From Thermoanaerobaculia bacterium (lineage in GTDB: Bacteria; Acidobacteriota; Thermoanaerobaculia; Multivoradales; JAHEKO01), in the NCBI GenBank assembly GCA_945787575.1, contig CALZKB010000056.1, positions 1 through 32,585 on the forward strand: a stretch of DNA of 32,585 bases. The letters run 5' to 3'. Under the pieces are notes generated by a model. The model was not told the origin of the DNA and made no database searches. It was given only the letters and a program-made list of their open reading frames with translations. Every line of letters starts with the position of its first letter. Position 1 is the stretch's first letter. The translations under genes were made by a program, and so were the position numbers. Positions 5,799 through 27,446 of this stretch are shown piece by piece.

Positions 5799-7265
<1,467 letters not shown>

Positions 7266-8138
7266 CTAAGCGAGCGCATTGGCGCCGCCGACGATGTCGA
7301 GCAGCTCCATGGTGACCTGGGTCTGGCGCGCGCGGTTGTACTGCATGGTGAGGCGTTTGATCATGTCTTCTGCGGCGTCGGTCGCGGCCTTCATCGCGAC
7401 CATGCGCGAAACCTGTTCGCTGACCGCGGCATCGGTGAAAGCCTGGAAGAGTTGGACTCGCACTGTGGCAGGCAGCAGCTCGTCGAGCAGCTCTTCGGGA
7501 CTCGGCGAGAACTCGTAGTCGACGGGGCTCGCCGGCTCCTCGCCCGCCGCCGCCTCGTAGGACAGCGGCAGGATCTTCTCCACGACCGGCGCCTGCTTGC
7601 CGGCGGAGATGAACTTCATGTAGGCGACCCAGAGCGCGCCGATCTCGCCGCTGGTGTAGTCGTCCATCAGCCGGTTGGCGATCGGTTCCACCTGATCGAA
7701 GCGAGGGGCGTCGCCGATCCCGGTGATCGCCTCCGCCAGTTCGCGGCCACGGAAGGCGAAGTTGGAGATGCCCTTTCCGCCGATCATAGTGACCAGTGTT
7801 TCGACGCCCGCTGCAGCACGCGCGTCGAGGTGCTCCATCACCAGCCGCAGCACGTTGGCGTTGTAACCGCCGCAGAGGCCGCGGTCGGAGGTGAGAACGA
7901 CCAACGCCTCCCTGTGGACTTCGTCGTGGGTCTGCATCAGCGGGTGCTCGAGGCCCTCGGCGGCGCGGGCCAGGCCGCCCACCAACTGAGCCAACTTCTC
8001 GGTGTACGGCTTGCCGGCGACGGCCCGGCTGAAAGCCGCCTGAAAACGCGCCGTCGCGATCAGTTGCATCGTCCGCGTGATCTTGCGGATGTTGCGCGTC
8101 GAATTACGGCGCTTGACGAGAACTCTGCGGTTGGCCAT
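7266..8138 (-). CDS. atpG: ATP synthase F1 gamma subunit
   Basis: This encodes 290 residues, matching the gamma rotor shaft. The N-terminal helix has the conserved RRNSTRNIRKITRTMQLIAT pattern, and the C-terminal helix has the matching AAEDMIKRLTMQYNRARQ plus a TMELLDIVGGANAL end. The Rossmann-like middle contains VVLTSDRGLCGGYNANV. It rotates inside the alpha3beta3 ring. It sits 24 bases upstream of atpD and 45 bases after atpA. Confidence 0.97.
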   Translation of the reverse strand: MANRRVLVKRRNSTRNIRKITRTMQLIATARFQAAFSRAVAGKPYTEKLAQLVGGLARAAEGLEHPLMQTHDEVHREALVVLTSDRGLCGGYNANVLRLVMEHLDARAAAGVETLVTMIGGKGISNFAFRGRELAEAITGIGDAPRFDQVEPIANRLMDDYTSGEIGALWVAYMKFISAGKQAPVVEKILPLSYEAAAGEEPASPVDYEFSPSPEELLDELLPATVRVQLFQAFTDAAVSEQVSRMVAMKAATDAAEDMIKRLTMQYNRARQTQVTMELLDIVGGANALA

Positions 8139-8183
8139 GGTCGATTCGGGTCGGGGTCGCGGTGGGCTCGATCGGAAGGATCG

Positions 8184-9884
8184 CTAGCTCGCGGACCGGG
8201 TCTTGAACTTGCCGACGAGCTCGTTGAGAGTCGCTTCCAGTTCGTCCGAGATCGTGCGCTTCGCGGCGATCTCCTCGAGGACCTCGGGGAACTCGTCACG
8301 GATGTGGGCGAGCAGCGCCTTCTCGAAGGCGGAGACTTGCGACACCTCGAGATCGTCGAGGTAGCCCTTGGTGCCGGCGAAGATCGACACCACCTGCTCG
8401 GCCACGGAGAACGGTTGGTACTGCGGCTGCTTCAGGAGCTCGACCATCCGCTGCCCGCGATCGAGCTGCTTCTGAGTCGATTCGTCGAGCTCGGTTCCGA
8501 GCTGCGCAAACGCCTCCAGCGCCCGGAAGGCAGCTAGGTCGAGGCGGAGCGACCCCGCCAGCTTCTTCATCGCCTTGATCTGCGCGTTGCCGCCGACCCG
8601 CGAAACCGATATGCCGACGTTGACCGCTGGTCGGACGCCGGCGAAGAAGAGGTCGGGCTCGAGAAAGATCTGCCCGTCGGTGATCGAGATCACGTTGGTC
8701 GGAATGTAGGCCGAGACCTCGCCCTCGAGGGTCTCGATGATCGGCAGCGCCGTCATCGAGCCGCCACTGTTGGGGAACTTGTGCAGCTTGTGGCCGTCCC
8801 CCGCAGTCTCAAGCGCCGCTTCCGCGCGCTCACGGCCGGATCCGCGATGGAAGATGCCCTTCGACTCATCCGGTGGGTGCTCGGTAAACGCGTCGAGGTC
8901 GCTCACCGCCAGCGAGCGATCGTTGGAGTCGACTGCGGTGTCGGCCGGTACGATCGCATACTCGTCGCGCAGCTTGACCGCCCGCTCGAGCAGACGAGAA
9001 TGGAGGTAGAAGACGTCGCCGGGGTAGGCCTCGCGACCCGGCGGCCGGCGCAAGAGCAGCGACAGCTGACGGTAGGCGTGGGCCTGCTTGGAGAGATCGT
9101 CGTAGATGACGAGCGTCGCTCTCCCGTCCAAGTACATGAAGTACTCGGCCATCGCAGCGCCCGCGTAGGGGGCGATGTACTGCAGCGGCGCCGGATCCGA
9201 CGCCCCAGCGGAGACGACGATGGTGTAGTCCATCGCCCCGAGCTCGCGGAGCTTCTCCACCACGCCGACGACCGTCGATTCCTTCTGACCGACGGCGACG
9301 TAGACGCAGACCACGTCGCCCCCCCTCTGATTGACGATGGTGTCCAGAGCGATGGCGGTCTTGCCGGTTCGGCGGTCGCCGATGATCAGCTCGCGCTGCC
9401 CGCGACCGATGGGGATCATTCCGTCGATCGCCTTGATGCCCGTCTGCAGCGGCTCATCGACCGGCTGGCGGGCGGCGATGCCCGGCGCCTTGAACTCGAG
9501 CGGGCGGCGATGCGGAGTCTCGACCGTTCCCAGGCCATCGAGCGGACGACCGAGCGGATCGACGACGCGGCCGATGAGCGCCTCACCGACGGGCACGGAC
9601 AGGAGCTCACCGGTGCGGCGGACCTCGTCGCCCTCCTTGATCGTCAGATAGTCGCCGAAGATGACGACGCCGACCGAGCTCTCTTCGAGGTTGAACACCT
9701 GACCGTACTGGCCGTTCTCGAACTTCAGCTGCTCAGCCGCGAGGGCGTTGGTCAAACCGTAGACCCGGGCGATGCCGTCACCGACCTCGAGCACGCGTCC
9801 GACTTCGGACAGATCCACTTCGGTCCGGTAGCTACGGATCTCCTCGGTCAGGACCGATGAAATCTCATCCACCTTGAACTTCAT
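8184..9884 (-). CDS. atpA: ATP synthase F1 alpha subunit with insertion
   Basis: This encodes 566 residues, about 50 longer than the usual 500-515. The standard features are intact: the nucleotide-binding loop GDRRTGKTA (169-177), the VGQKEST region, [31 protein letters not shown] (a strong family block spanning about 262-292), the SRLLERA motif (296-302), [31 protein letters not shown], and the arginine-finger context [11 protein letters not shown]. Between [14 protein letters not shown] and GGSMTALP (about 309-373) there is a polar stretch far longer than in E. coli, where some 15-20 residues occupy this loop. The frame is unbroken and both flanks are highly conserved, so it is an insertion rather than a frameshift. 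Ribosome site GAGG precedes the ATG. Confidence 0.97.
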
Positions 9885-9897
9885 CTCGATACCTCGC

Positions 9898-10482
9898 TTA
9901 CGTCGTGAAATGGATCTCGCGCGTGGCGCGATCCAGCAACTGATCGTTCAACCGGCGTAGGTCCGACGCCAGGCTGTAGTCGATCTTCCGGTCGCCGACC
10001 GACACGATCAGGCCGCCCAGGGTCTCCGAGTCGACCGTCTCCGCCAGCCGTACCTGCCGCCCGGTGACGCGTGCCAGCGTCTCCCGGAGCTTCTCGCGAT
10101 TCGAGTCCGTGAGCGGAACCGCCGAGGTCACCGCCACGTCCACCCGTCCGCGCTTCTCGTCGAGCGCCTGACGGTAGGCGACCGCCAGCGCCCGCAAGAG
10201 GCCGAGCCGCCCCTTGCCGTTCATCACCTGTAGCGCGTCGACGACGAGCGGGCTCACCTCGTCCTGCAGCGTCTTGTCGATCGTCCTGCTCCGAGCGTCC
10301 TGAGCGACCAGCGGACTCGAGAAGAACCGCTCCAGGTCGGGATCCCGGTCTTGGAGCGCGACCAGACCGCGGAGCTCCTCGAGCACGCGGTCTCCGGCAT
10401 CCCGCTCTTCCGCCAGCGCGAGCAGGGACTCCGCATAGACGCGGGCCACCGCAAGCTCGCGATCGTTGACCTGAGCGCTCAT
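9898..10482 (-). CDS. atpH: ATP synthase F1 delta subunit
   Basis: This encodes 194 residues, slightly long for the delta/OSCP stator subunit. The N-terminal helical domain begins [17 protein letters not shown], as in the family. The C-terminal part holds the typical [25 protein letters not shown], then [29 protein letters not shown]. It connects the top of the alpha3beta3 hexamer to the b-subunit stalk. It lies between atpF (11 bases) and atpA (13 bases). Confidence 0.95.
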
Positions 10483-10493
10483 CTCGACGCCGC

Positions 10494-11087
10494 TCAGTTG
10501 AGGTCCTGCCCACCGAGCTGTTCGATCGCTTCCGCGATCAGCCGCTCGTGATCTTCGGCCTTGACTTCGCGCTTGAGGACGCGGGAAGCGACGTCGGTGG
10601 CGAGCGCGGCGCTGGTCTTGTAAAGGTCGCGGATCGCGGTCACCTTGGCGATCTCGATCTCGCGCTTGGCGCGTTCGATCATCTTGTCAGATTCGTCGCG
10701 CGCCTGCTCCTCGATCGTCGCCTTCACCACCTCGGCGTCGCGCCGACCTTCCTCGACGATCGCGGTCGCTTCAATGCGAGCGTCGTGGAGCTTGTCGGTG
10801 TACTCCGCGAGCGTCGCCTCGGCTTTCTCGCGGTCCTGTTTGGCCTCCGCCAGCGAGTCGCGGATGAAACTCTCACGTTCTTGAAGCACCGAGAGCAGGG
10901 GTCCCCAGGCGAACTTACCGAGCACGAAGACCACCAGCAGGAAGACGAGCAGAGTCCAAACCGCGTTGCCCAGATCTCCCGCGAAGATGTTGCTCTCGCC
11001 CCCGCTCGTAGCGAAGACTGCGGGAGTCGAGATCAGGACGACCCCGAGTGCTGTCGCCAGCGTTTGGATAGTGGTTTTTCCAACCAT
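10494..11087 (-). CDS. atpF: ATP synthase Fo b subunit, leader-like N-terminus
   Basis: This encodes 197 residues from the ATG giving MVGKTTIQ. An in-frame start 13 codons upstream would add an arginine-rich extension and is less likely. The protein has a hydrophobic leader-like segment (about 8-27, ending VFATSGG), then the true transmembrane helix (39-62, NAVWTLLVFLLVVFVLGKFAW). The hallmark FAWGPLLSVLQERESFIRDSLAEA and a long charged coiled coil to about 170 follow. This is the peripheral stator stalk. An extra leader before the membrane helix is not present in E. coli AtpF. Confidence 0.95.
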   Translation of the reverse strand: MVGKTTIQTLATALGVVLISTPAVFATSGGESNIFAGDLGNAVWTLLVFLLVVFVLGKFAWGPLLSVLQERESFIRDSLAEAKQDREKAEATLAEYTDKLHDARIEATAIVEEGRRDAEVVKATIEEQARDESDKMIERAKREIEIAKVTAIRDLYKTSAALATDVASRVLKREVKAEDHERLIAEAIEQLGGQDLN

Positions 11088-11159
11088 GGTTTCAATCCAT
11101 CGACGGCGTCGAGCCGTCCGAATCAACGGCGGCCGGGTCGAGCCCGGCCGCCTGGTGCA

Positions 11160-11564
<405 letters not shown>

Positions 11565-11612
11565 TTACGGCCCGCGTGCCCCGCGCATGTCCGGGCATGG
11601 CGAAGATCTGTC

Positions 11613-12461
11613 TTAGGGATGAGCCTCCTGCTGCGAGTCGCCGTGATCGTGATGAAAAACGATCGACTGGGCGATGAACATGATCGTCAGGAAGGTGAAG
11701 ATGAACGCCTGGATGAAGGCCACCAGAATCTCCAGAAAGGTGATGGCGATCGCTCCGGCGACGGCCGGGATGGCGATGAGAAAGCCCATGGTGGCGCTCG
11801 CCGCCCCGGCGCTGAGAATGAAGCCGATCAGCACCGCCAGCAGGATGTGGCCGGCCAGCATGTTGGCAAACAGACGCACCGTCAACGCGAACGTCTTGGC
11901 AATGAAGCCGATCAGCTCGAGCGGCACCAACAGCGGGGCCAGCCACAGCGGGCCCGGGCAGAGGTGCCCGATGAACTCCTTGGGTGCCAGGCGCAGACCG
12001 TTGACCACCATCATCAACAGGGTCAGGACCGCGAGCGTGCCGGTGGTCCAGATGTTGGCGGTGGCGGTGCCGCCGATGTGGAACTTGCTGAGCAGGGGAC
12101 TCACCGCGTTGATCGGAACCAGGCCGAGCAGATTGAGAGTCAGGATGAAAAAGAAGACCGTCCAGACATACTTGATGAAACGGTCGGTGTACTCACCCAG
12201 ATTGGGGCGGGCGAGCTCGTCGCGGAAGTAGGTACAGATGGCCTCGATCCCGTTCGCCGGACCGCTGGGCACCAGCCTCTCGATGCCCTCTCCGCGGCGA
12301 CGTCTCAGCGCCCTCGGCACGAACAGCATGAGGAGGATCCCGGCCAGCCAGATCATCGAGATCTGGTCGGACCAGAGCGTGTACTCGTGGCCGGCGATCT
12401 CGACGGTGCCATTCGTGTGCTGAATGACGTGCGAGAGCGGACTGGAGGTTTCAGCTGCCAT
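11613..12461 (-). CDS. atpB: ATP synthase Fo a subunit
   Basis: This encodes 282 residues forming the membrane half-channels for ion passage. Seen directly: the LTLNLLGLVPIN helix (107-117), the essential arginine R196 in FALTVRLFANMLAGH, and the final helices with FLEILVAFIQAFIFTFL and a histidine-rich tail. A long N-terminal segment with IEAICTYFRDELARPNLGEY matches the family. Its start overlaps the end of the preceding atpI-like gene by 11 bases, supporting translational coupling. Confidence 0.96.
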   Translation of the reverse strand: MAAETSSPLSHVIQHTNGTVEIAGHEYTLWSDQISMIWLAGILLMLFVPRALRRRRGEGIERLVPSGPANGIEAICTYFRDELARPNLGEYTDRFIKYVWTVFFFILTLNLLGLVPINAVSPLLSKFHIGGTATANIWTTGTLAVLTLLMMVVNGLRLAPKEFIGHLCPGPLWLAPLLVPLELIGFIAKTFALTVRLFANMLAGHILLAVLIGFILSAGAASATMGFLIAIPAVAGAIAITFLEILVAFIQAFIFTFLTIMFIAQSIVFHHDHGDSQQEAHP

Positions 12462-15798: not shown

Positions 15799-18700
15799 CT
15801 AGACGCCGGCCGAGTACTCGTAGTCCTTGAACGAAACCCGGAAGAACAGAGAGTAGAGAACGGGCACCACCAACAGCGTCAGCGCGGTCGCGAAGACCAA
15901 GCCGAACATGATCGCCACCGCCATCGGCTGGTACATGACGCCGCCACCCAGGTAGAGCGGAATCAAGCCACCGAGGGTGGTGAAGGTCGTCAGCAGGATC
16001 GGCCGCATCCGGCGCTGCGCTGACTCCACGATTGCGTGCGCCGGGGTGAGGCCGTTCTCGTGGATCTCGATCTCGATCCGGTCGATCAGCACGATCGCGT
16101 TGTTGATGACGATTCCGGCCAGCGACACGATGCCGAGCAGGGTCATGAACCCGAAGTAGGAGCGCATGACCAGCAGACCGACGATCACGCCGATCAGGCC
16201 CAGTGGAATGGTGATCAGGATGATCGCCGGCCGCCGCAGGGAGTTGAACTGCCCTACCAGCAGCATGATGATGATCAGACCGGCGATCGGCAGCTTGGCG
16301 CTGATCGAGGCGTTCGCCTCCTCCGACGCCTCGTCCTCGCCGCCGATCTCGAACGAGTAGCCGAGAGGCCAAGAGGCGGCGTCTCGCTCGAGTAGCGGCA
16401 CCAGGACCTGGTTGACGCCGATCGCGGTATAGCCGGGATCGAGATCGGTCGAGATGGTGACCGTGCGCAGACGGTCGCGGCGGCGGACGTTGGAAGGCTG
16501 CCACGCGATCTCGAGATCGGCGACCTGCTTGAGCGGCACCGAGCGGCCGGTCGACTGGGCGAAGACGTTGAGGCTGTCGAGCTTCTGCAGATCGAGCCGA
16601 TCGGCGCCGACCGACCGCAGGGTGACGGGGATGATCTTGTCGCCCTCGCGGTACTCGGTGGTCGTGATGCCGGAGAGCAGGGTCTGCATCGACAGCGCGA
16701 CGTCCTGGTGGGTCACTCCCGCCCTCTGCGCCCGCGCCTCGTTGATGCGCACGAGAAGCTTCTTGGAGCGCGCGCCCCAGTCGTCGGAGATATTCCGCGG
16801 ACCGTCCACCTCTTGAAGCCGTCGTTTCACCTGGTCGACGAGCTCGAAGACCGTATCCGTATCGCGGCCGGAGATCCTGACCTCGATCGGGTCGCCGGCC
16901 GGTGGACCGAGCGGCAGCGGGTCGATCTGCGCCTTCAGGCCCGGGAAGCCCTTGCAGAACTCGCGCAGCTCGGCGACCGCGGTGTCGATGTACTCCCGCG
17001 ACGAGGCGTTGACGACGAGGATGGCGTACTCGGGGCTCGCCTGCTCCGGCCCGTAGCTGAGAAAGAAGCGTGGAGCGCCCTCGCCGATGAAGGTCGCCCA
17101 GTTGGTGATTCCGTCGCTGCCGGCCGCCACCTCCTCGGCGCTGACCTTCAGGTTCTCAGTGAGGAAGCGCTCGACCTCGACCGCGACCTCCTCGGTCCGT
17201 GCCAGGGGGGTGCCGGTCGGCAGGCGCAGCTCGGCGGTGAGGGTGGCTCGCTCGTTGGGCGGGAAGAAGATGTTGGGCAGAAACTGGAAGAGCTGCATCG
17301 CGCCGAAGAACACGAGGAGCGTCACCGCCACGGCCAGCCACGGCCGGCGCACGGCTCCGATCAAGAGACCGCGGTAGCGCTCGTACCAGATCGAGGTGAA
17401 GCCCTCCTCGGTCTTCGGCTTGATCTTCAGGAACAGCACGCACAGCGCCGGGATGATCGTAATCGCCAACAGCCACGAACAGAGCAAGGTGATCGTCACG
17501 ACCTGAAAGAGCGCCGCGGTGTACTCGCCGACCGCCGACTCCGCCAGGTAGATCGGCAGGAAGGCGGCCGCGGTGGTGAGCGACGAGACCAAGAGCGGGC
17601 CCTTCAGCTCCGAGGCCGCGTCGATCGCCGCCGCCTTGACTGGCTTGCCCTCCGCGGTCGCCACCATGATCGACTCGGACATCACGATCGCGTTGTCGAC
17701 GAGCAGACCGAGGGCGATGATGAGCGATGCCAGCGACATGGTGTTGATGCCGACGTTGAAAAAGGACATCAACAGAAAGCTCATGATGATCGCCATCGGG
17801 ATCAGGCTCGCGACGACGAGCCCGGTGCGCACTCCGAGGCTCACCAGCATGACGAGCATCACGATTCCCACCGCCTGCAGCAGGTTGCCGACGAAATCGT
17901 TGACCTTGGTCTCGACTTCCCCGGCTTGGAACTGGGTGAACTCGAACTCGATGCCGTGCGGGTAGCCTCGTTGGGCGCGCTCGATCGTCGCCGCGACCTC
18001 GTCGCCGAGCGCCAGGATGTTGCCCCCCTCACGAAGCGACACCGCCAGCGCCAGGCCCGGCTCGCCGCTCGCCCGCATCCTCCGGGTCGGAGGATCGACA
18101 TAGCCGCGATAGACGTCGGCGACATCTTCGAGATAGACCAGTTGGCCACCGGGAAGAGGGATGATCGTGCGCTTCAGATCCTCGACCGACTCGAAGTTGC
18201 CCGATGGCTCGAGGACGATCTGCTCCTGATCGGTGCGCACCTCCCCGCCGGGGTTGATGATGTTGCGGCTCGCCAGAATCGAGCGCAGCTGCCCTGGTGA
18301 GAGACCCAGCTCGGCGAGCCGGGCGTTGTTGTACTCGACGAACACCCGTTCGTCCTGGGCGCCGTGAATGTCGACCTTCGCGACCTCGTCGATCAGCAGA
18401 AGATCGTCGCGGACCGCGTCCGCCACGACCTTGAGCTCGGCGTAGGAATAGCCATCGCCGGTCAAGTTGACGACCGTACCGAAGACGTCGCCGAACTCGT
18501 CGTTGACGGTGGGGCCGATCACGCCGTCGGGCAGCTCGCCGCGAGCGCGGTCGACCTTGCGCCGCAAGTCGTCCCAAATCGGTCGCATCTCCGTGTAGCG
18601 CTCCCGGATGTCGACCATCACCAATGACACGCCGTTTTTCGACTGGCTCGTGATGTGGTCGACCTGCGGCATCTCCTGGATCGCTTTCTCCAGCTTGTCG

Positions 18701-18891
18701 GTGACCAACTGCTCGACCCGATCGGGGCTCGCACCCGGGAAGTGGGTGATGATCATCGCCGTCCGAATCGTGAACCCCGGGTCCTCGGCGCGCGGCATCC
18801 CGTTGTAGGCGAGAATCCCGCTGAGCATCAAGACCGCCAAGACGACGAAGGTGACGCGGTTCTTCTCGATCGCGATCTGGGTCAGACTCAC
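15799..18891 (-). CDS. RND-family efflux pump, inner-membrane permease
   Basis: This encodes 1030 residues, normal for HAE1-type RND transporters (about 1020-1050), which use the proton gradient to export drugs or other hydrophobic molecules through a TolC channel. Seen directly: the N-terminal helix IEKNRVTFVVLAVLML, a periplasmic PGASPDRVEQLVTDKLE block, helix 4 with the proton-relay aspartate in LGLLVDNAIVMSESI near residue 400, the duplicated second half beginning near RRPWLAVAVTLLVF, and MTLLGIVSLAGIVINNAIVLIDRIE for the second repeat. The start is a GTG overlapping the adaptor stop (GTGA). The substrate is not predictable. Confidence 0.95.
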   Translation of the reverse strand: MSLTQIAIEKNRVTFVVLAVLMLSGILAYNGMPRAEDPGFTIRTAMIITHFPGASPDRVEQLVTDKLEKAIQEMPQVDHITSQSKNGVSLVMVDIRERYTEMRPIWDDLRRKVDRARGELPDGVIGPTVNDEFGDVFGTVVNLTGDGYSYAELKVVADAVRDDLLLIDEVAKVDIHGAQDERVFVEYNNARLAELGLSPGQLRSILASRNIINPGGEVRTDQEQIVLEPSGNFESVEDLKRTIIPLPGGQLVYLEDVADVYRGYVDPPTRRMRASGEPGLALAVSLREGGNILALGDEVAATIERAQRGYPHGIEFEFTQFQAGEVETKVNDFVGNLLQAVGIVMLVMLVSLGVRTGLVVASLIPMAIIMSFLLMSFFNVGINTMSLASLIIALGLLVDNAIVMSESIMVATAEGKPVKAAAIDAASELKGPLLVSSLTTAAAFLPIYLAESAVGEYTAALFQVVTITLLCSWLLAITIIPALCVLFLKIKPKTEEGFTSIWYERYRGLLIGAVRRPWLAVAVTLLVFFGAMQLFQFLPNIFFPPNERATLTAELRLPTGTPLARTEEVAVEVERFLTENLKVSAEEVAAGSDGITNWATFIGEGAPRFFLSYGPEQASPEYAILVVNASSREYIDTAVAELREFCKGFPGLKAQIDPLPLGPPAGDPIEVRISGRDTDTVFELVDQVKRRLQEVDGPRNISDDWGARSKKLLVRINEARAQRAGVTHQDVALSMQTLLSGITTTEYREGDKIIPVTLRSVGADRLDLQKLDSLNVFAQSTGRSVPLKQVADLEIAWQPSNVRRRDRLRTVTISTDLDPGYTAIGVNQVLVPLLERDAASWPLGYSFEIGGEDEASEEANASISAKLPIAGLIIIMLLVGQFNSLRRPAIILITIPLGLIGVIVGLLVMRSYFGFMTLLGIVSLAGIVINNAIVLIDRIEIEIHENGLTPAHAIVESAQRRMRPILLTTFTTLGGLIPLYLGGGVMYQPMAVAIMFGLVFATALTLLVVPVLYSLFFRVSFKDYEYSAGV

Positions 18892-20006
18892 GAAGCGGTC
18901 CCCTGCACGAGCACTTCTTCGCCGTCGGTCAGCCGGCGAACGCCGGCCGTGACGATCCGCTCCCCATCCTGCAGCCCGCTCGCAATCTCGAGCCCCTCAC
19001 CCGTCAGCTCGCCGACTTCGACACCGCGCCGCCGCGCCACGCCGCGCCCCTCGCCCGTCAACTCGAGGACGAAGACGAAACGCCCCTCGCGATCTTCCCC
19101 GACGGCCACCGCCGGTACGACGATCGCGCCCGCCTCCCCGGTACCGAACCGAAAAGAGACCTCCGCCGCCATCCCCGAGCGGATGCCGGGATCGGAATCG
19201 CTGAGCCGCGAGACCACCGGAAAGGTCGTCGCGGAACCGACGGCGGCCGCGCCCGCCTCGGTCACGGCACCGGTGAATCGCCGGTCGGGCAACGCGTCGA
19301 AGGTGACCTCGACAGCCTGCCCGAGCTCGACGTCGGCGATCAGAGCCTCCGGAAGCGCCACCTCCACTTCGATCTCGGCGCCCGCGGCAAGGAGAAAGAG
19401 CGACTTGCCTGCCTGAATGTTCTCGTTGACCTCGGCGGTGCTCGACGCGACGATCCCGGCGACTGGGGCACGCAGCTCGCAGTAGGAGAGTTGACGGCGG
19501 GCCTGCTCGAGACGCTTCTCGGCCGCCTGTACCTGAGCTTCGGCCGATTCCGCGTTGGCGCGTGCCCCGTCGAGCTCGCGACGGGACGCGTTGTTGTTCT
19601 CGTAGAGACCCCTCACCCGATCGTAGTCCGACTCGGCGTTGCGGCGCGCGGCTTCGGCCTGAGCCAATCCGGCGAGGGCCTCCTGAACCCGCAGCTCGTA
19701 GTCGGTGGGGTCGAGCCTGGCGAGGACCTGTCCGCGAGCGACTCGCTGGCCGACCACGACGGGCACTCGCTCGACGATGCCCGGCACTCGGAAGCTGAGG
19801 TCAGACTCGAGTCCGGCCTTGGCGACTCCGGCGAAGGTCCGCAGCCGGGAGTCGGCGGTGACGCGCACCTCCTCGTAGCGCACCGGCCGCAAGACAACCT
19901 GGGCCTCCGGTGGCTCGGCACAGCCGCCGACCCACGACACCGTCAATGACACCAGGATCGAGCGCACCGTAGCTTGCGAGCATTGGAACGAGCGTCGGTT
20001 CTTCAT
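18888..20006 (-). CDS. Periplasmic adaptor lipoprotein of RND efflux pump
   Basis: This encodes 372 residues (membrane fusion protein family). The N-terminus carries a lipobox-like VGGC (Cys29). The lipoyl domain is split: FRVPGIVERVPVVVGQRVARGQVLARLDP (72-100) and SYCELRAPVAGIVASS (174-189). They flank a long alpha-helical hairpin (103-172, heptad-rich, AEAARRNAESDYDRVRGLY and QVQAAEKRLEQARRQL). Beta-barrel and membrane-proximal domains follow. It bridges the RND pump and the TolC channel. It overlaps both neighbours by four bases, so tight operon coupling is likely. Confidence 0.93.
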   Translation of the reverse strand: MKNRRSFQCSQATVRSILVSLTVSWVGGCAEPPEAQVVLRPVRYEEVRVTADSRLRTFAGVAKAGLESDLSFRVPGIVERVPVVVGQRVARGQVLARLDPTDYELRVQEALAGLAQAEAARRNAESDYDRVRGLYENNNASRRELDGARANAESAEAQVQAAEKRLEQARRQLSYCELRAPVAGIVASSTAEVNENIQAGKSLFLLAAGAEIEVEVALPEALIADVELGQAVEVTFDALPDRRFTGAVTEAGAAAVGSATTFPVVSRLSDSDPGIRSGMAAEVSFRFGTGEAGAIVVPAVAVGEDREGRFVFVLELTGEGRGVARRRGVEVGELTGEGLEIASGLQDGERIVTAGVRRLTDGEEVLVQGTAS

Positions 20007-22381
20007 GGCTGGAGTCTCCCGCCCGCGCGAGGGCGGGCACTCTCTGACTGGAGGTAGGCTTCGAGGCGGGTGACGAACGCCTCCCGTTCTTCCTCGTCGT
20101 GGACGAGGTCGAGCGCGCTGGCCGAACGCCGCGCCTCCAGCAGATCGATCAGGCAGTCGTAGAGCGCGTTGGCCGCTAGCTCCTCGGCGTTGAGGCTCGC
20201 GGTCTGGGCGTCGAGCAGGTCGAGCAACGACGCCACTCCGCGAGCGTAGGCGTCCTCGACGAGCTCGAGATTGCGCCCCGCAGCCTCGGCGCCGCGATTC
20301 GACAGATCGATTCCGAGCCGCGAGGCGCGCGCCTGCTCGAGGGCCACCCGGATCGCCTGTTCGATCTTCTCTTCGGTCGACGACCTCAACAGCTGCAGCC
20401 GCTCGAGCTCGATCGCCGCCTGGGCGCGCTCGGCCGCCCGCGAGCCGCCGGAGAAGAGCGGCAGCGAGCCGGCCAGAGCGAAACTCCAGCTCGAGTCGTC
20501 GGCAGCCGTCGGCTGAGATCCGGCACCGCCCTTCGAGAGCAGCTCCTCGAGGGTTGCCTGGAGCGACACCGTCGGTGCCCAGAAAGCCCGGCGCGTCGAC
20601 AGCTCGAAGCGATACTGAGCCGCGATCGCCGCGTCGATCGCCGCCAGATCGGGCGAGCGCGACAACCCCTCGCGCACCACGAACTGAGCGAAGGTGCGGT
20701 ACCCCGCGGGAGTGCCGGCGTACTCGGCGAAGAGCTCCGCACCGGCCAGCAGGTCGCTCGCGTTCATGTCGATCTCCTCGGCGATGAACACGGACTCGAG
20801 ATCGTGATGAAGGAGGCGGTTGATGGCGATCTCTGCACTCCGCCGGTCGGCTACCGCATCGATCAACGCCTTGCGCGCGCTGGCGATCTCGCTTTCCCAG
20901 CGCAGCACCTCACCGGCAGCGGCGACGCCGATCTCGCGCCGGATCTGCGACACCTCGAGGTTCGAGCGGGTCTGCTCCACGTTGTTGCGCTGCACTCGTT
21001 CCAGGGTCTTGGCCCGCATCAAGTTCAGGTAGGTGGTCGCCGCCTCGAGCATGAGGTCGAGTCGCAAGCTCTCGTACTCGTGCTCCCGGCGCTCTTGGAG
21101 GCTGCGCTGAACGGCGATATTGGCGTTGGCGCCCTCTGAAAAGAGCAGCTGCGACAACGTCGACGACAGCGTCGAAGCGCGTTCCGGCTGATTGCCGAAC
21201 GCCGCCGTCGCGCGATCGTCGTCGATGGTCAGATAGGTAGACGAAAGCTCGAGCTGCGGCCGCAGGTTGGCGCGTGCCAACGCGACCTCCTCGGCGCTGG
21301 CCGTCACCGAACGGCGTTCGACGATCAGGTCGAGATTGAGCTCGAGCGCTTGCTTGACCACTGCGTCGAGGGTCAGCCTGTAAGCGCCCTCGAGATTCTC
21401 CGGATGCAAGACCTCGGCCTCGATCAGGGTCTCCCACCGCGGCGAGACATCGATCGCGCGGGCGGTCGCCATGTTGATGACCAGGCGGTCGTGAAGGGTG
21501 AACTCGACCGGGATCTCGCCGGCGTTCTCCCCCAGCAGGATCCGCTGGAGGTTGAGGGCGACCCGGCGCACCAGCTTGGGGAAAAACTCCGGGGAGCCGG
21601 CGGTGGCGAGCATCCCCTGCTCGACATCGGTGCCCCCGAGGCCCGAGAAGCTCGGCAGTCCCCTGGCGATGAAGCCGTCGATCAGCTTCCGGTACTCGGC
21701 CGCGGAGAACTGAAAGAGCGGCCAGGCATAGACCGCATCGATGTCCGGCGGCAGCGACGCGAGCAACTCGTCGGCCGACACTCCGGCGGCCACGTAGTCG
21801 AAGTCGATGCCGGTTCCCGCCAGCCCGATCCGGGTTCGCTCCTCGAGCTCCGGGATCGCTTCCAGCAGCGAAGCCTGGGTGAGGATTGCCACGTGGCGGA
21901 ACGGCACGATCTCGAGAAAGTTCTGAACCTCCTGAGCGAGGTTGTCGGGGAGCGCGACGTAGTTCAGATTGTGCACGCCGCTCGCCCCGTCGACGAGCGG
22001 CAGCCCCTGCAGTGCCGGGTCGAGGATCACCGGGGCGATCACCGGCTTGGCAAGATCACCGAAGCAGCAAGCCGTATGCGACGCGAGAATGCCCCAGGCG
22101 ATGACGAGATCGACTTCCGGATCGTCGAGCAGCCGCTCGACGTTGGCCCGGGCGGTGTCATGGCTCCAGTCACCGACGAGGTAATCGCTGTCCCCGAAGC
22201 GAACGTCGAACTCGCCCTCGGTGAGCGCAGTCACCTCGTCGATGGTGAGCTGGCGAACCGTCGAATTGAGCGCCCACGGGCCGTCGACGACTACGCCGAT
22301 CCGCACGGTAGGCAGCTCGGCCGCCGCCATGCTCGCAGCGACGACGGAAAGCAACCCCGCGATCACCACTCGTCTTTTCAT
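20003..22381 (-). CDS. ABC substrate-binding-like domain fused to TolC
   Basis: This encodes 792 residues, far longer than a TolC protein (about 430-490). After a signal peptide (1-21), residues 22-330 look like an ABC_sub_bind-type periplasmic binding domain: TVRIGVVVDGPWALN, then VDLVIAWGILASHTACCF, LAKPVIAPVILDPA, and HVAILTQASLLEAIPELEERTR, with a bilobed alpha/beta pattern. From about 335 the TolC/OEP family begins: LTLDAVVKQALELNLDLIVERRSV, ANLRPQLELSSTY, LFSEGANANIAVQR, and a repeated second half with RAFWAPTVSLQATLEELL and LPLFSGGSRAAERAQAAIELE. It is the first gene of the efflux operon, with ribosome site GGAGA five bases before the ATG. The combined architecture is unusual; no frameshift joins the parts. 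Confidence 0.88.
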   Translation of the reverse strand: MKRRVVIAGLLSVVAASMAAAELPTVRIGVVVDGPWALNSTVRQLTIDEVTALTEGEFDVRFGDSDYLVGDWSHDTARANVERLLDDPEVDLVIAWGILASHTACCFGDLAKPVIAPVILDPALQGLPLVDGASGVHNLNYVALPDNLAQEVQNFLEIVPFRHVAILTQASLLEAIPELEERTRIGLAGTGIDFDYVAAGVSADELLASLPPDIDAVYAWPLFQFSAAEYRKLIDGFIARGLPSFSGLGGTDVEQGMLATAGSPEFFPKLVRRVALNLQRILLGENAGEIPVEFTLHDRLVINMATARAIDVSPRWETLIEAEVLHPENLEGAYRLTLDAVVKQALELNLDLIVERRSVTASAEEVALARANLRPQLELSSTYLTIDDDRATAAFGNQPERASTLSSTLSQLLFSEGANANIAVQRSLQERREHEYESLRLDLMLEAATTYLNLMRAKTLERVQRNNVEQTRSNLEVSQIRREIGVAAAGEVLRWESEIASARKALIDAVADRRSAEIAINRLLHHDLESVFIAEEIDMNASDLLAGAELFAEYAGTPAGYRTFAQFVVREGLSRSPDLAAIDAAIAAQYRFELSTRRAFWAPTVSLQATLEELLSKGGAGSQPTAADDSSWSFALAGSLPLFSGGSRAAERAQAAIELERLQLLRSSTEEKIEQAIRVALEQARASRLGIDLSNRGAEAAGRNLELVEDAYARGVASLLDLLDAQTASLNAEELAANALYDCLIDLLEARRSASALDLVHDEEEREAFVTRLEAYLQSESARPRAGGRLQP

Positions 22382-22548: not shown

Positions 22549-23526
22549 CTAGCGCCCGTGGCCGGAGAGCAGCAGCCATAAGAAGAACGGTCCGCCCAGC
22601 AGCGCGGTGACCACCCCGACGGGAAGCTCGGCGGGCGCCAGCACCCGGCGGCCGATGAGGTCGCACAGAGCCAGGAAGGCTCCACCTCCGAGGACGCAGG
22701 CGGGGAGCAGCACCAGGTGGTCGTGCCCGAGCAACCGGCGCAGCACGTGCGGCACGATGAGACCGACGAAGCCGATCGGCCCCACGACCGCGACGAGGGC
22801 GCCGACCATCGCCGAGGCCGCCGCCAGCACCAGCCACCGCACCCGCGAGAGATCGACCCCCCGACTCGCCGCCACCTCTTCGCCGGTCAGCAGCAGGTTC
22901 AGATCCCAGCGCAGAAGCACGAGGAGGAGGAGTCCGAGAGCGACCCACGGGGCGAGCCAGAGGACTTCGCGATAGCCGACGACCGCCAGGCCACCCATCA
23001 TCCAGCGCACCATCCGGAAGGTCTCCGTGAAGTCGGCCCGATATTGAAGGAAGAGGATCAGCGCCGAGCAGGAGAGAGACACCGCGATCCCCGAGAGCAG
23101 CAAGGTGGAGGTCGTGAACCGGCGGCGTGAGGCGAGGCCGAGGATCAGCAGCGATACCGCCCCCGCCCCGGCAAAGCTCGCCACCCCGACGACGGAGAAA
23201 CCGGCGAGCGTCGCCCCAGCGCCCAACTGGATGGCGATGACCGCACCGAGCGCTGCGCCCGAGGCGACGCCGAGGGTATAGGGCTCGGCGAGGGGATTGC
23301 GAAAGAGGGTCTGGAAAGCGAGGCCGGCGGCGGCGAGCGCCCCCCCTGCCAGCAGCGCCAGCAACACTCTCGGCACTCGGATGTGCCAGAAGATGACGTA
23401 GCCGGTCGTACCCGGCTCGAGCAGCTCCCGCCAGCCGAGGGTGTGCTCACCCACCGCCGGCGCCCCAGCGAGGACCGCCAGCCAGACGACGGCGATGAGG
23501 GCGACCCCTCGCCCGTCTGCACTCAA
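22549..23526 (-). CDS. btuC: Cobalamin ABC transporter permease (BtuC/FecCD)
   Basis: This encodes 325 residues of the FecCD/BtuC permease family, with about ten transmembrane helices. Seen directly: IRVPRVLLALLAGGALAAAGLAFQTLFRNPLAEPYTLGVASGAALGA (the family-defining block), LLSGIAVSLSCSALILFL, the EEVAASRGVDLSRVRW coupling loop, and GPIGFVGLIVPHVLRRLLGHDH. It imports B12 across the inner membrane with BtuD and BtuF. The start is a TTG at 23526 preceded by GAGGAG, overlapping the btuD stop (TTGA). It is the last gene of the riboswitch-controlled operon. Confidence 0.93.
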   Translation of the reverse strand: MSADGRGVALIAVVWLAVLAGAPAVGEHTLGWRELLEPGTTGYVIFWHIRVPRVLLALLAGGALAAAGLAFQTLFRNPLAEPYTLGVASGAALGAVIAIQLGAGATLAGFSVVGVASFAGAGAVSLLILGLASRRRFTTSTLLLSGIAVSLSCSALILFLQYRADFTETFRMVRWMMGGLAVVGYREVLWLAPWVALGLLLLVLLRWDLNLLLTGEEVAASRGVDLSRVRWLVLAAASAMVGALVAVVGPIGFVGLIVPHVLRRLLGHDHLVLLPACVLGGGAFLALCDLIGRRVLAPAELPVGVVTALLGGPFFLWLLLSGHGR

Positions 23527-24314
23527 GCGGACTCCTCGGAATCGAGCTCGAGCACCGGCAGCACCTCGCCGCCGTCGCGCCACACTCGGAAGGGGGCGTC
23601 GAACAGGTCGCCGAGCACCTCCGGAGTGAGTACTTGAGCAGGAGTCCCTTCCGCCACCAGCGCCCCCTCGCGCATCGCCACCAGCCGATCGCACAGCCGC
23701 GCCGCGAACCGCAGATCGTGCGTCGCCACCACCAGCGTGTGGCGGCCCTTGCGCCCGAGGGCGAGTAGCAGCTCGGCCACCCGGCGGCGGTTGCCGGCGT
23801 CGAGATGGGTCGTCGGCTCGTCGAGAAGCAGGATCGGACTGCGTTGGGCGAGGGCGGCGGCGACGTAAGCGGACTGACGCTCGCCACCCGACAGCTCGGT
23901 CAGCCGGCGCTTCAGAAGAGACTCGATCCCGACCTCGTGCGCCGCCTGGCGAACGGCCGCGAAGTCTCCGGCGGCGGGCGCCAGCTGCCGGGCCGAAAGG
24001 TAGGGGTAGCGGGCCGAGAGCATCAGTTGGTGAACGTCGAGCGGCACCTGCACGGGGCTGAGCTGCGGAACGTAGGCGACGCGACGCGCGCGGGCCTTGG
24101 ACGACCAACTGGCGAGCGGGCGACCATCGAGCAACACCTCTCCGGTGCTCGGGCCCTCGAGCCCGGCCAGCAACCGCAGCAGGCTGGTCTTGCCCGCTCC
24201 GTTGGGACCGAGCAGACCCAAGCACTCTCCCTCCCTGACCGTGAGGTCGACGCGGTCGACGATCCTTCGATCGCCAATCACCCAGCCCGCCTTCCGGGCC
24301 TCGAGCAGTTTCAT
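23523..24314 (-). CDS. btuD: Cobalamin ABC transporter ATPase
   Basis: This encodes 263 residues with a complete nucleotide-binding domain: Walker A GPNGAGKT (36-43), Q-loop Gln84, signature LSGGERQ (141-147), Walker B ILLLDEP (161-167) and switch His199. It belongs to the iron-siderophore/B12 importer ATPases. The assignment to cobalamin rests on the riboswitch and on btuB/btuF/btuC next to it. Its ATG overlaps the btuF stop by four bases (ATGA). Confidence 0.93.
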   Translation of the reverse strand: MKLLEARKAGWVIGDRRIVDRVDLTVREGECLGLLGPNGAGKTSLLRLLAGLEGPSTGEVLLDGRPLASWSSKARARRVAYVPQLSPVQVPLDVHQLMLSARYPYLSARQLAPAAGDFAAVRQAAHEVGIESLLKRRLTELSGGERQSAYVAAALAQRSPILLLDEPTTHLDAGNRRRVAELLLALGRKGRHTLVVATHDLRFAARLCDRLVAMREGALVAEGTPAQVLTPEVLGDLFDAPFRVWRDGGEVLPVLELDSEESA

Positions 24315-25198
24315 GACCGCCGCGAGATACAGCGCTCGAGAGCCCGCCGGAGCTCGATGAGTACCTCCGGTAGCCGCGGACCGGGGATCATCATCTTCTC
24401 GCCGGCGACGATCTCGATGCAGCGCGGGCTGGCGCTGGTGAGACCGGCGAGCTGTGACCAGTCCGCCGTCAACGCCGCCGCCCGGCTTTCCGGCACCTCG
24501 AGCGGCTGGATCTCGAGTACTGCATCGGGCCGGCGGGCGAGGATCTCCTCGATCCCGATCTGCGGATAACGGGTATCGACATCGCCGAACACGTTGCGAG
24601 CGCCGATCTTGCCCAGAAGCTGATGGTAGAAGGTGCCCGGTCCGGCGACGAGCAGATCGCCCAGCCGCTGGGGCTCGCGCCCGATGACCATCGCCACCCG
24701 AAGCGACTCGGCCAGCACCTCGGGTGCCAGATCTTGTCGCCATTGGCGCAGAAAAGCCTCGCCCCGCTCCACGACCCCGCAAGCCTCGGCGATCGTCTCG
24801 ATGGCAAGCTCGACGTCGCCCAGCGTTTCGCTCGGTACCGTCATCACTTCGATGCCGACGCTCTCGAGTCGCGCTCGCAGCGATTCCTCACTCGTCAAGA
24901 GAATCGCCAGATCGGGCCCGAGACCCACGATGCGCTCGAAGTCGGGATTGAACAGGCCGCCCAGCCTGGGCTTGCCGGCGAGCTCCGGTGGCCAATTGAC
25001 GTAGTCGCCGACTCCGACGATCTTGTCTCCGAGCTCGAGAGCGTGCAACACCTCTGCAACGCTCGGAGCCATGGTGATGATGCGCTCCGGGGTGTCGGCC
25101 GTAGCCGTTGCCGGCGTTGGCAACCCCGGATCGCCTCCGCGACAGCCGACCGCCAGGGTCGCCGCCAGCAAAAGCAGACTCGTCGGTCGTCGCAACAT
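24311..25198 (-). CDS. btuF: Cobalamin-binding lipoprotein
   Basis: This encodes 295 residues with a lipobox AVGC (Cys19), so it is a membrane-anchored periplasmic binding protein. The helical-backbone binding-protein fold is recognisable: PERIITMAPSVAEVLHALELGDKIVGVGDYVNWPPE, the PRLGGLFNPDFERIVGLGPDLAILL segment, and a second lobe with LLGKIGARNVFGDVDTRYPQIGIEEILARRPDAVLE. This matches BtuF, which passes B12 from the outer-membrane receptor to BtuCD. It is 19 bases downstream of btuB. Confidence 0.92.
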   Translation of the reverse strand: MLRRPTSLLLLAATLAVGCRGGDPGLPTPATATADTPERIITMAPSVAEVLHALELGDKIVGVGDYVNWPPELAGKPRLGGLFNPDFERIVGLGPDLAILLTSEESLRARLESVGIEVMTVPSETLGDVELAIETIAEACGVVERGEAFLRQWRQDLAPEVLAESLRVAMVIGREPQRLGDLLVAGPGTFYHQLLGKIGARNVFGDVDTRYPQIGIEEILARRPDAVLEIQPLEVPESRAAALTADWSQLAGLTSASPRCIEIVAGEKMMIPGPRLPEVLIELRRALERCISRRS

Positions 25199-25217
25199 CG
25201 CCTTCCCTCCGCTCCGA

Positions 25218-27038
25218 TCAGAAGCCGAGGCTCACGCCTCCGATCAGCTTGATTCCCGGCGCCGGAAAGCCTAGCGCTTCCGAGTAGGCCTCATCCGTCA
25301 GATTCTCCACTCTCGCATAGGGCGCCCATCGCGGCCACCCCCGGTAGCGAGCCGCCACGTCGAGGCGCTCGTAGCTGGCGTTGTCTCGACGGATGAACGC
25401 GATCGGGTCGATGTCGGCACGCTTCCCGGTATAGAGCACGGTGCCGCTGAGCACCCAGTCGCGCGGTCGCCAGCTGACGACCACCGACCCCCGCCAGCTT
25501 GGGCGCCGCAAGAGGGCCAACCCAGTGTCGAGATTCTCGGTATGGAGGTAGGTGGCGTTGGCCCTGAGCTCGGTGGTCGATCCGTGCACGGTCAGGCCGA
25601 CCTCGACCCCTTCGGTTCGGGCGCGGCCGATGTTGACGGTGAAGAACTCGAGAAGGTCGAAGTCGATCAGATCCTCGAGCTCGGTGTAAAAGGCGACCAC
25701 CGTCCCGTCGACCTTCGTGCCGCTGAAGACCCAACCGAGCTCCAGGCTCTCGCTGCGCTCCGGCTCGAGCGTAGGGTTGCCGGTGAGCGGGAAGAACAGC
25801 TCACCGATCGACGGCGCTCGGAACCCCTCCGCCACCGCGAGATGCAGCCGGTGCCGCCCGCTGACAGCGACACCAAGCCCGAGGCGGGGAGTCACGGCGC
25901 TGCCAAAGGCATCGTGGTCATCGGCGCGCAGTCCGAGGTCGAGCCGCCAGCGACCAGCGGTGAAGAACAGCTGGCTGAAGATCGCCTGGGTGGTCTGACG
26001 CTCGCCGTCGAGGCCGACGCCAAAAGTCGACGCGCTGTCGACTTCCTGCCTCTCGTACTCGCTTCCGGCGGCGATCCACAGCTCCTCGCCCAATCGGCGG
26101 GTGACGACCACCCGCGCCCGTTCGGACGTGGACCGGTCCTCGGATGCGGTGAAGCCGAAGGCGTCGTCCGGATCCTCGAAGGTGCTCTCGAGCGATACCT
26201 TGGACAGCTGGCCGGCGATCTTCCAATCGCCCCTCTCGACCGCGAACGGAATCGCGGCTTCCGACTCGGTCCAGCTGGTCCGCCGGTTCGGACTCCGCTG
26301 TCCGCCGGCAAAAGGAATGCCGAGCTCCGATTCGTTGGCTCTCACCGTCAGACCGACTTCGACTCCGCTGCCCACCGCCCAGCGAGCGCTAGCCATGGCG
26401 TCGTCACTGTCGTAGAAGTCGTTCTCCACCTCGCCGTCGCCGCGCCGGGAATGGGCAGCGAAGTCGAAGCCAAACCGCTCGCGCTCGACTCGTCCGACCA
26501 ACGCAGCCCGCCCATAACCGTTCTCGCCCGCCTCGATCGAGAGCGAATTGGCAACGGCGCCGGTCAGAACCTGGACCACGCCGCCGACCGCGTCGCTGCC
26601 GTAGAGCGCACTGAAAGGACCGCGAATGACCTCGACTCGCTCCACCCCGTCGGTCGGCAGCAGACCCCAGTCGAAGCCGCCGAAGAAAGGGTCGTTGAGC
26701 TCGAGGCCGTTCCACAGGACGAGAGTTTGGTCCGACTCGGTGCCCCGGGTGAAGAGTGAGGTGACCTTGCCTGCCGTACCCGACCGGACGATGTCGAGTC
26801 CGGGCACCGTGCGCAGCAGGTCGGCGATGCTCGTCGCCTGCCGAGCTTCGATCTCGTCCCGCTCGATGACCTGGGCCGAGACCGGCAGGAGATCGGCCGA
26901 CTCCTCGGTCAACGCGGCGGTCACGAGGACCGATTCCGTGATCGTGGGTTTGTCTTCTCTCTCGGCGTCCGCCTGGTCGGCGGCAAGAGCCGGCATCGCT
27001 CCCCCGAGGAGCGCCAGCCACAGCAAGCTTCGGCGCAT
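25218..27038 (-). CDS. btuB: TonB-dependent vitamin B12 receptor
   Basis: This encodes 606 residues, similar to E. coli BtuB (about 614). It has a signal peptide (1-20), a TonB-box-like ESVLVTAAL (35-43), and a plug domain with SIADLLRTVPGLDIV and the BtuB-like VERVEVIRGPFSALYGSDAVGGVVQVLTG (132-160). A 22-stranded barrel with alternating aromatic strands follows, and the protein ends in phenylalanine (GGVSLGF). The start is the ATG at 27038; the frame stays open upstream through the riboswitch, which is not coding. Expression is controlled by the cobalamin riboswitch. Confidence 0.95.
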   Translation of the reverse strand: MRRSLLWLALLGGAMPALAADQADAEREDKPTITESVLVTAALTEESADLLPVSAQVIERDEIEARQATSIADLLRTVPGLDIVRSGTAGKVTSLFTRGTESDQTLVLWNGLELNDPFFGGFDWGLLPTDGVERVEVIRGPFSALYGSDAVGGVVQVLTGAVANSLSIEAGENGYGRAALVGRVERERFGFDFAAHSRRGDGEVENDFYDSDDAMASARWAVGSGVEVGLTVRANESELGIPFAGGQRSPNRRTSWTESEAAIPFAVERGDWKIAGQLSKVSLESTFEDPDDAFGFTASEDRSTSERARVVVTRRLGEELWIAAGSEYERQEVDSASTFGVGLDGERQTTQAIFSQLFFTAGRWRLDLGLRADDHDAFGSAVTPRLGLGVAVSGRHRLHLAVAEGFRAPSIGELFFPLTGNPTLEPERSESLELGWVFSGTKVDGTVVAFYTELEDLIDFDLLEFFTVNIGRARTEGVEVGLTVHGSTTELRANATYLHTENLDTGLALLRRPSWRGSVVVSWRPRDWVLSGTVLYTGKRADIDPIAFIRRDNASYERLDVAARYRGWPRWAPYARVENLTDEAYSEALGFPAPGIKLIGGVSLGF

Positions 27039-27065
27039 TGTCCGCTCCGTCCGTGGATCGACGCC

Positions 27066-27080
27066 CCGCCTGCGAGGCGG
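27066..27080 (-). other. Hairpin in the btuB leader
   Basis: CCGCCT and AGGCGG pair perfectly around a three-base loop, 28-42 bases before the btuB ATG. It is GC-rich but has no U-run, so it is not a standard intrinsic terminator. It could be part of the riboswitch expression platform that changes ribosome access. Confidence 0.35.
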
Positions 27081-27177
27081 ATCGTGGACGGCATGATGGC
27101 GCGCCCGGACCCCGCACCCCGCGGGACTCCCCATCCGGAACCGGCTACTGGAGCGCCGGAGGCGGGCTGGGGCGTCG

Positions 27178-27361
27178 GACGTCGGGGTCGGTCTCCTGGC
27201 TTCCGGGTCTTCCTCTGCCGGGCCTTCCCACGCGGTGAACGGCGGTTGCCATCCAGCCGCGCAGTGGTGATCCCGGTTTCGTCGCCGGTTACAGTGGCGG
27301 GGGCCGCGCCGGTATTCCACCGGCTTCCCAGGCAGCACGCTAGCTGCCGTACCCCAACGTC
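27178..27361 (-). ncRNA. Cobalamin (B12) riboswitch
   Basis: Read on the minus strand, this leader contains the conserved cobalamin-aptamer core: GGGAAGCCGGTGGAAT with its pairing CCGGC, the CCGCCACTGTAAC segment, an ACCACTG element, a GGGAAGG motif, and the 3' AAGCCAGGAGACC box. The P1 stem can be paired by eye: 27352-27361 with 27178-27187, ten base pairs including one G-U, just outside those boxes. It sits 139 bases before btuB and would shut down the btuB-F-D-C operon when adenosylcobalamin is plentiful. Together with its leader it explains the gene-free stretch from 27039 to 27446. Confidence 0.95.
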
Positions 27362-27446
27362 GGGTTATCAAAGAAGGGCTGCCTTCGAGCTCAGGGCCTC
27401 CCTGTGTCCGCTCGCGCAGACTATCCGATTCAGCGGCTCCAGGGGA

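Follow-up and report, generated by a model that had tools for sequence, protein, structure and literature searches.

In the genome of a Thermoanaerobaculia bacterium, a periplasmic binding-protein domain of the ABC_sub_bind/TrpX fold and a complete TolC-type outer-membrane channel are encoded as one protein, and this combination recurs in many poorly studied bacteria of other phyla beside two unrelated types of export pump. As the best explanation we propose, tentatively and with less than even confidence, that the additional domain is a ligand-responsive part of the exit channel and not a part of the pump; the mechanism is inferred, and no ligand is known. The features on which our analysis rests are compiled in Table 1, where the window denotes the whole stretch of DNA that was analyzed (32,585 nucleotides).

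Table 1. Fused channel gene, its partner genes, and a receptor gene recurring upstream of related fused genes. Positions refer to the window unless a locus is named.
Feature	Position	Strand	Basis or remark
Signal peptide of the fused channel protein (residues 1-21)	22319..22381	(-)	Translation MKRRVVIAGLLSVVAASMAAA
Periplasmic binding-protein domain, ABC_sub_bind/TrpX fold (protein residues 22-326)	21404..22318	(-)	Family profile, AlphaFold, Foldseek
Short inter-domain junction	21383..21403	(-)	Sequence variable, length nearly constant
TolC/OEP outer-membrane channel, both repeats (protein residues 334-792)	20006..21382	(-)	Pfam OEP, PDB TolC, full-length model
RND periplasmic adaptor (HlyD_D23/RND_mfp)	18888..20006	(-)	Pfam and NCBIfam
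RND pump (AcrB/ACR_tran family; TM4 motif GLLVDNAIV)	15799..18891	(-)	ACR_tran match and motif
TonB-dependent receptor upstream of fused channel	L034 5158-7647; L038 1591-4239; L053 8058-10583; L056 3-2684		

The fused gene (window 20003-22381, minus strand) is a single frame of 792 amino acids that runs uninterrupted from its ATG to the stop codon. Its signal peptide ends with ...SMAAA/ELP, and a hydrophobic leader likewise precedes the binding domain in relatives. Residues 338-755 match the OEP family twice (Pfam E 4.7e-41), a sequence search of the PDB returned TolC with an E value of 1.5e-12, and the full-length model of the monomer matches the structures of TolC and OprM in addition to that of the TrpX protein 3lft; two OEP repeats, the beta-barrel hairpins, and the long helices expected of a TolC protein are thus all present. 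The adaptor and the pump encoded by the following genes were recognized by RND_mfp (E 9e-75) and ACR_tran (E 3e-166), respectively, and the channel gene overlaps the adaptor gene, and the adaptor gene the pump gene, by four bases each. Adaptor and RND pump, as expected of an RND tripartite exporter, are thus present in the same operon. A VGGC motif makes it possible that the adaptor is a lipoprotein. An earlier sequence-only reading of this DNA had described the unbroken frame with its signal peptide, binding-like domain, and complete TolC, followed by adaptor and pump genes with four-base overlaps, and our analysis bears this out; the bilobed binding-like domain does begin at residue 22, but its boundary lies nearer to residue 326 than to residue 335, where that reading had placed it.

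The nature of the N-terminal domain could not be established from the window protein alone, since single-sequence searches proved too weak to name it. Its match to ABC_sub_bind (PF04392; E 0.02, 14.6 bits) stays below the Pfam cut-off of 25.9, the NCBIfam search gave only an E value of 0.28 for TrpX, and a PDB sequence search with the window sequence alone yielded no credible match for this domain. A family profile was therefore required, and we built it from an alignment of 24 relatives (A2). Searched against the PDB, this profile found 3lkv (1.6e-10), 3lft (3.6e-8), and 6hni (1.7e-6), and besides these no match below 0.1. Twenty-two of the 24 family members match PF04392 at E values of 0.1 or better (best 7.7e-9), and a member from the Latescibacterota (L120) exceeds the cut-off by itself (32.1 bits). 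Hence, the sequence evidence for an ABC_sub_bind/TrpX-type protein is met by the family profile, although not by the window sequence. The AlphaFold model of the domain is two-lobed (pLDDT 92.1, pTM 0.87), and its best solved neighbor is 3lft, a TrpX protein with bound L-Trp (Foldseek E 3.6e-17, TM 0.77/0.82), so that the two-lobed class I fold of TrpX is recognized by AlphaFold and Foldseek alike. The TrpX-type identity that the sequence-only reading had suggested, together with the fold comparison by which it could be checked, is consequently upheld by TrpX-type proteins as the best solved matches in both profile and Foldseek searches; the outcome that would have refuted it, a domain without any binding-protein fold, did not arise. 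At the junction between the two parts of the protein, the spacing from A301 to A324 (domain numbering, here and below; adding 21 gives protein numbering) amounts to 22 residues in 52 of 60 relatives and never leaves the range of 21-23 residues. We considered this constancy as evidence of a rigid coupling but do not use it as proof, because a control showed other stretches of the protein to be equally constant.

The fused order of domains is present in over 60 loci from Acidobacteriota, Gemmatimonadota, Dadabacteria, Calditrichota, Bacteroidota, Rhodothermota, Riflebacteria, Gammaproteobacteria, and Campylobacterota. Among 99 related genomes, 30 possess the binding domain, and almost every full match is part of an open frame of about 790-940 residues that also encodes the TolC part and is followed by adaptor and RND genes. 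The genome of the window itself carries a second copy, cut by the end of its contig (C258). Strong matches in a phylum-wide draw were again mostly fused and come from about ten further families. A scan of contigs with the window protein alone gave no match; scanning with alignment A3 provided 42 loci from named genomes, some of them on the same contigs as in the set of related genomes. These loci represent the groups listed above, with Latescibacterota and without Campylobacterota; the locus from Bacteroidota belongs to Splendidivirga corallicola and that from Rhodothermota to the complete genome of Roseithermus sacchariphilus. In 41 of the 42, the domain profile and TolC match within the same frame, the exception being L129. 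The fused gene of the Riflebacteria has no adjacent pump. The recurrence of this two-domain order with adaptor and pump across phyla is far beyond chance, and the search for it beside RND genes in other genomes, as proposed along with the original reading, thus had a positive outcome. An error of assembly or annotation that merged two genes, for which the only support is that the window comes from a draft genome in 484 contigs, can be rejected with near certainty because the fused frame is conserved in over 60 independent loci, including complete records such as plasmid pSULKU01 of Sulfuricurvum kujiense. The situation in which all close relatives would have separate genes and the window an assembly error was not encountered.

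Within the related genomes, the fusion travels with a particular type of RND pump. At least 52% identity to the window pump was found for RND proteins of 27 of the 99 genomes (partial sequences counted), and 26 of these genomes also hold the binding domain; in the 27th (G013), the contig ends just upstream of the pump gene. RND matches of 38% identity or less mostly show no link to the binding domain, with the exception of G078, in which a fused channel adjoins a pump of only 33% identity. When we searched 199 genomes of the phylum with the TolC part, all matches with E values of 1e-60 or better were either fused or cut by a contig end; in G181, for instance, the frame begins within the final residues of the binding domain and is cut there by the end of the contig. 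Weaker matches comprise more distant fused channels (G078, G129) and ordinary TolC proteins, whose frames have 528-538 residues and whose identity is 27-28%. The fused channels are therefore a separate group. G013 and G181 had been considered as unfused relatives and were rejected, both being contig breaks. Only one complete, unfused close TolC protein was found (L129 6936-9338), and it derives from a MAG of the Deltaproteobacteria/Myxococcota, outside the phylum of the window. This protein has 38% identity, its own leader, and no binding domain. L129 branches at the base of the fused group, where the tree is not resolved, so that loss of the domain cannot be distinguished from a state that preceded the fusion.

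The same type of channel is also found in the company of a different pump. In about a dozen loci from gammaproteobacterial MAGs, the fused gene is preceded by genes for an HlyD adaptor, a large protein (about 910 residues) that combines two ATPase domains with a permease, and an ABC-2 permease; the second of these proteins is identified as an RbbA equivalog (NF033858; 1494 bits, cut-off 1050). On the complete plasmid pSULKU01 of S. kujiense, the genes are arranged in the order TetR, fused channel, HlyD, RbbA, ABC-2 permease, and TetR, the fused channel having 31% identity across 99% of the window protein and RbbA scoring 1515 bits against the same cut-off of 1050. The full set of RbbA, HlyD adaptor, and ABC-2 permease is present at L108 and L162 and not in the window. 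Whether built from the binding domain or from the TolC part, the tree unites the ABC-linked channels in one group, which joins a group of RND-linked acidobacterial channels. The two trees share many supported clades, and the pairwise distances of the two domains are correlated (0.86). This agreement makes the fusion look ancient and its two domains inherited together; the simplest reading, as far as it can be judged from sequence comparisons, would be a single old fusion that was inherited as a unit and whose pump was later exchanged. Because, unexpectedly, the pump of one clade with this fused channel is an ABC exporter of the RbbA type, we conclude that the binding domain belongs to the channel and not to the pump. 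The initial picture of the fusion as a component of RND operons is correct in that fused channels widely lie beside RND genes, but it is too narrow, as they also serve RbbA-type ABC exporters in gammaproteobacterial MAGs and Sulfuricurvum.

Inspection of the surrounding genes yielded several further observations. Directly upstream of the fused gene and on the same strand (window 22549-27371), there are genes for a FecCD permease, an ATPase, a Peripla_BP_2 binding protein, and a TonB receptor, together with a cobalamin riboswitch (98.6 bits) located at 27169-27371. This is a B12 uptake operon, apparently a chance neighbor; its genes were rejected as partners of the channel, as they are not found beside the fused gene in relatives. 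Four loci from the family of the window, one being the second copy from the genome of the window, have an orthologous TonB-dependent receptor (51-81% identity, not BtuB) encoded upstream of the fused channel and on its strand (Table 1), which offers a hint about the substrate. An ordinary set of ATP synthase genes (alpha, beta, gamma, a, b) occupies positions 5799-12461 of the minus strand. The same type of binding domain was also seen in proteins of 550-573 residues whose C-terminal end is formed by a BON domain and not by TolC (L173 2545-4266, L174 1438-3096, L179 2188-3840). Plasmids of Cetobacterium somerae (Fusobacteriota) encode TolC proteins of 723-726 residues (L203 5260-7440, L204 5167-7338), each followed by an RND adaptor and pump and each with an N-terminal part of about 265 residues; that of L203 matches the binding-domain profile weakly (14 bits), and these proteins are probably a diverged version of the same fusion.

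In TrpX, the amino and acid groups of the ligand are held by T108, A127, T129, D152, and N233 (S. suis numbering; PMC9382623; PMC6816091). This grip is not kept in the window domain, in which the aligned positions are I77, hydrophobic residues near 97-99, L123, and Q203; they are variable in relatives. An amino acid bound in the manner of TrpX is therefore unlikely, and binding could have been lost. Family-wide, conservation is also lower for the loops at the cleft (0.45) than for loops on the opposite side of the lobes (0.59). Both observations would suit a domain that has retained the fold without a ligand and only positions or stabilizes the channel or docks to the adaptor, to peptidoglycan, or to the membrane, resembling the lipoprotein YbjP, whose binding to the equatorial region of E. 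coli TolC shows that partners can attach there (PMC13095208). We nevertheless judge a mere scaffold to be unlikely, given that within clades the cleft is conserved as much as or above the rest of the domain (0.90 vs. 0.86 in the gammaproteobacterial and 0.79 vs. 0.76 in the acidobacterial sequences) and that D12, in the first cleft loop behind the first strand, is invariant in 60 sequences. The corresponding values for cleft versus far-side loops are 0.90 vs. 0.80 and 0.79 vs. 0.77. The ratio of cleft to rest conservation amounts to 1.11 within clades, to 0.80 between three clades, and to 0.74 between sister clades with different pumps; the contrast between the first two of these values was matched by 0.9% of 5000 random segment sets of equal lengths. 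For these comparisons, in which three clades were used, the limits of the cleft were derived topologically, with predicted secondary structure and not coordinates as the basis, and were slightly widened between the first and the second analysis. A pattern of this kind is as expected for ligands that differ between clades, a reading that rests on conservation alone in the absence of a known ligand and of binding data. A His residue and a Cys-Cys pair (ASHxxCC; domain residues 81 and 84-85, window 21377-22318) are conserved in the close acidobacterial group but not in other clades; they might form a metal or disulfide site.

How a ligand might matter depends on where the domain is placed. It is generally known that the TolC subunit chain starts by the equatorial domain, or neck, of a channel of about 14 nm in length, and that the helices pivot there upon opening (PMC13095208). 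We envision a TolC trimer in which each subunit would carry its N-terminal TrpX-type domain on a short junction. Inferred from the topology of TolC and without a trimer model, the domain would sit in the periplasm beside the neck of the channel; it may close on a small ligand specific for the clade, and binding could then help to decide whether the channel opens or the adaptor is recruited. Tethered by about 10 residues near the neck, the domain would be placed to influence opening or adaptor docking and poorly placed to feed the inner-membrane RND pump, and direct feeding of the pump looks on geometrical grounds like the least likely idea. The same inferred geometry weighs on the proposal that the domain acts as a binding protein in reverse, trapping the export substrate in the periplasm, passing it to the adaptor or channel, and thereby raising the affinity of the exporter. 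Such a role would be in keeping with the retained binding-protein fold, the clade-specific pattern of the cleft, and the low conservation ratio between the sister clades with different pumps, as if the ligand tracked the exported substrate. However, from a chain start near the neck and across so short a junction, the pump entry is unlikely to be reached, and the fused channel has been kept with two unrelated pump types; we regard capture as rather improbable. Since the domain would be located by the neck, we favor a ligand-responsive channel over both scaffold and capture, none of which has been shown. It remains possible, albeit doubtful, that the ligand-responsive channel is gated outright, the fused domain sensing a small molecule and controlling opening or assembly whichever pump, RND or ABC, drives export.

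We found no description of a binding-protein domain fused to an outer-membrane factor in the open-licence papers searched, including part of a 2021 Chem Rev review. Each half belongs to a known family; what seems to be undescribed is their fusion, how widely it is spread, and that it works with two types of pump. The usual view of outer-membrane factors is that of passive exits opened by adaptors, and the fused domain may, by inference, enable the channel to detect or retain a particular molecule. A conserved, phylum-crossing exit that carries a ligand-binding fold and retains it when the pump is exchanged makes control of export at the level of the channel testable, and this in cultured bacteria such as S. 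kujiense. Current annotation misnames this type of gene; in Sulfuricurvum, the product is annotated merely as 'ABC transporter substrate binding protein'.

Several known systems invite comparison. TolC and OprM (PF02321; PDB 1ek9, 1wp1) share with the window protein the complete two-repeat channel, its fold, and a place in an adaptor-pump operon, but lack the binding domain of about 305 residues that is added here at the mature N-terminus. The MdtABC/AcrAB-type RND exporters likewise have a multidrug-efflux-type adaptor and RND pump, encoded in the window in one overlapping operon; the window pump differs in belonging to a clade tied to fused channels. The usual TM4 motif of AcrB is LVDD. The window pump (15799-18891) has DN in place of the DD of AcrB, and LVDN is the TM4 proton-relay motif in nearly all RND pumps of fused operons. 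The YhiI-RbbA-YhhJ ABC exporter has its counterpart in the HlyD adaptor, RbbA ATPase-permease, and ABC-2 permease of the gammaproteobacterial MAGs and Sulfuricurvum, whose operons, in contrast, carry their own fused binding-domain channel. The YbjP-TolC complex offers a precedent for an extra partner at the neck of TolC (PMC13095208), where the placement of the fused domain is inferred; YbjP, however, is a separate lipoprotein. TrpX, CD0873, and VC_1101 (PDB 3lft, 6hni, and 3lkv; PF04392) have the same two-lobed fold, and the closing motif ...INMATARAIDVSP of the window domain corresponds to ...INKKIAQELGITIP of TrpX. Yet these are free or lipid-anchored uptake proteins for Trp, Tyr, or Phe, whereas the window domain is fused to TolC within export operons and is devoid of the residues that grip the amino acid, and the neighbors of the fused gene are exporter genes and, apart from the FecCD/Peripla_BP_2-type import genes upstream in the window, include no permease and ATPase that would partner an uptake protein.
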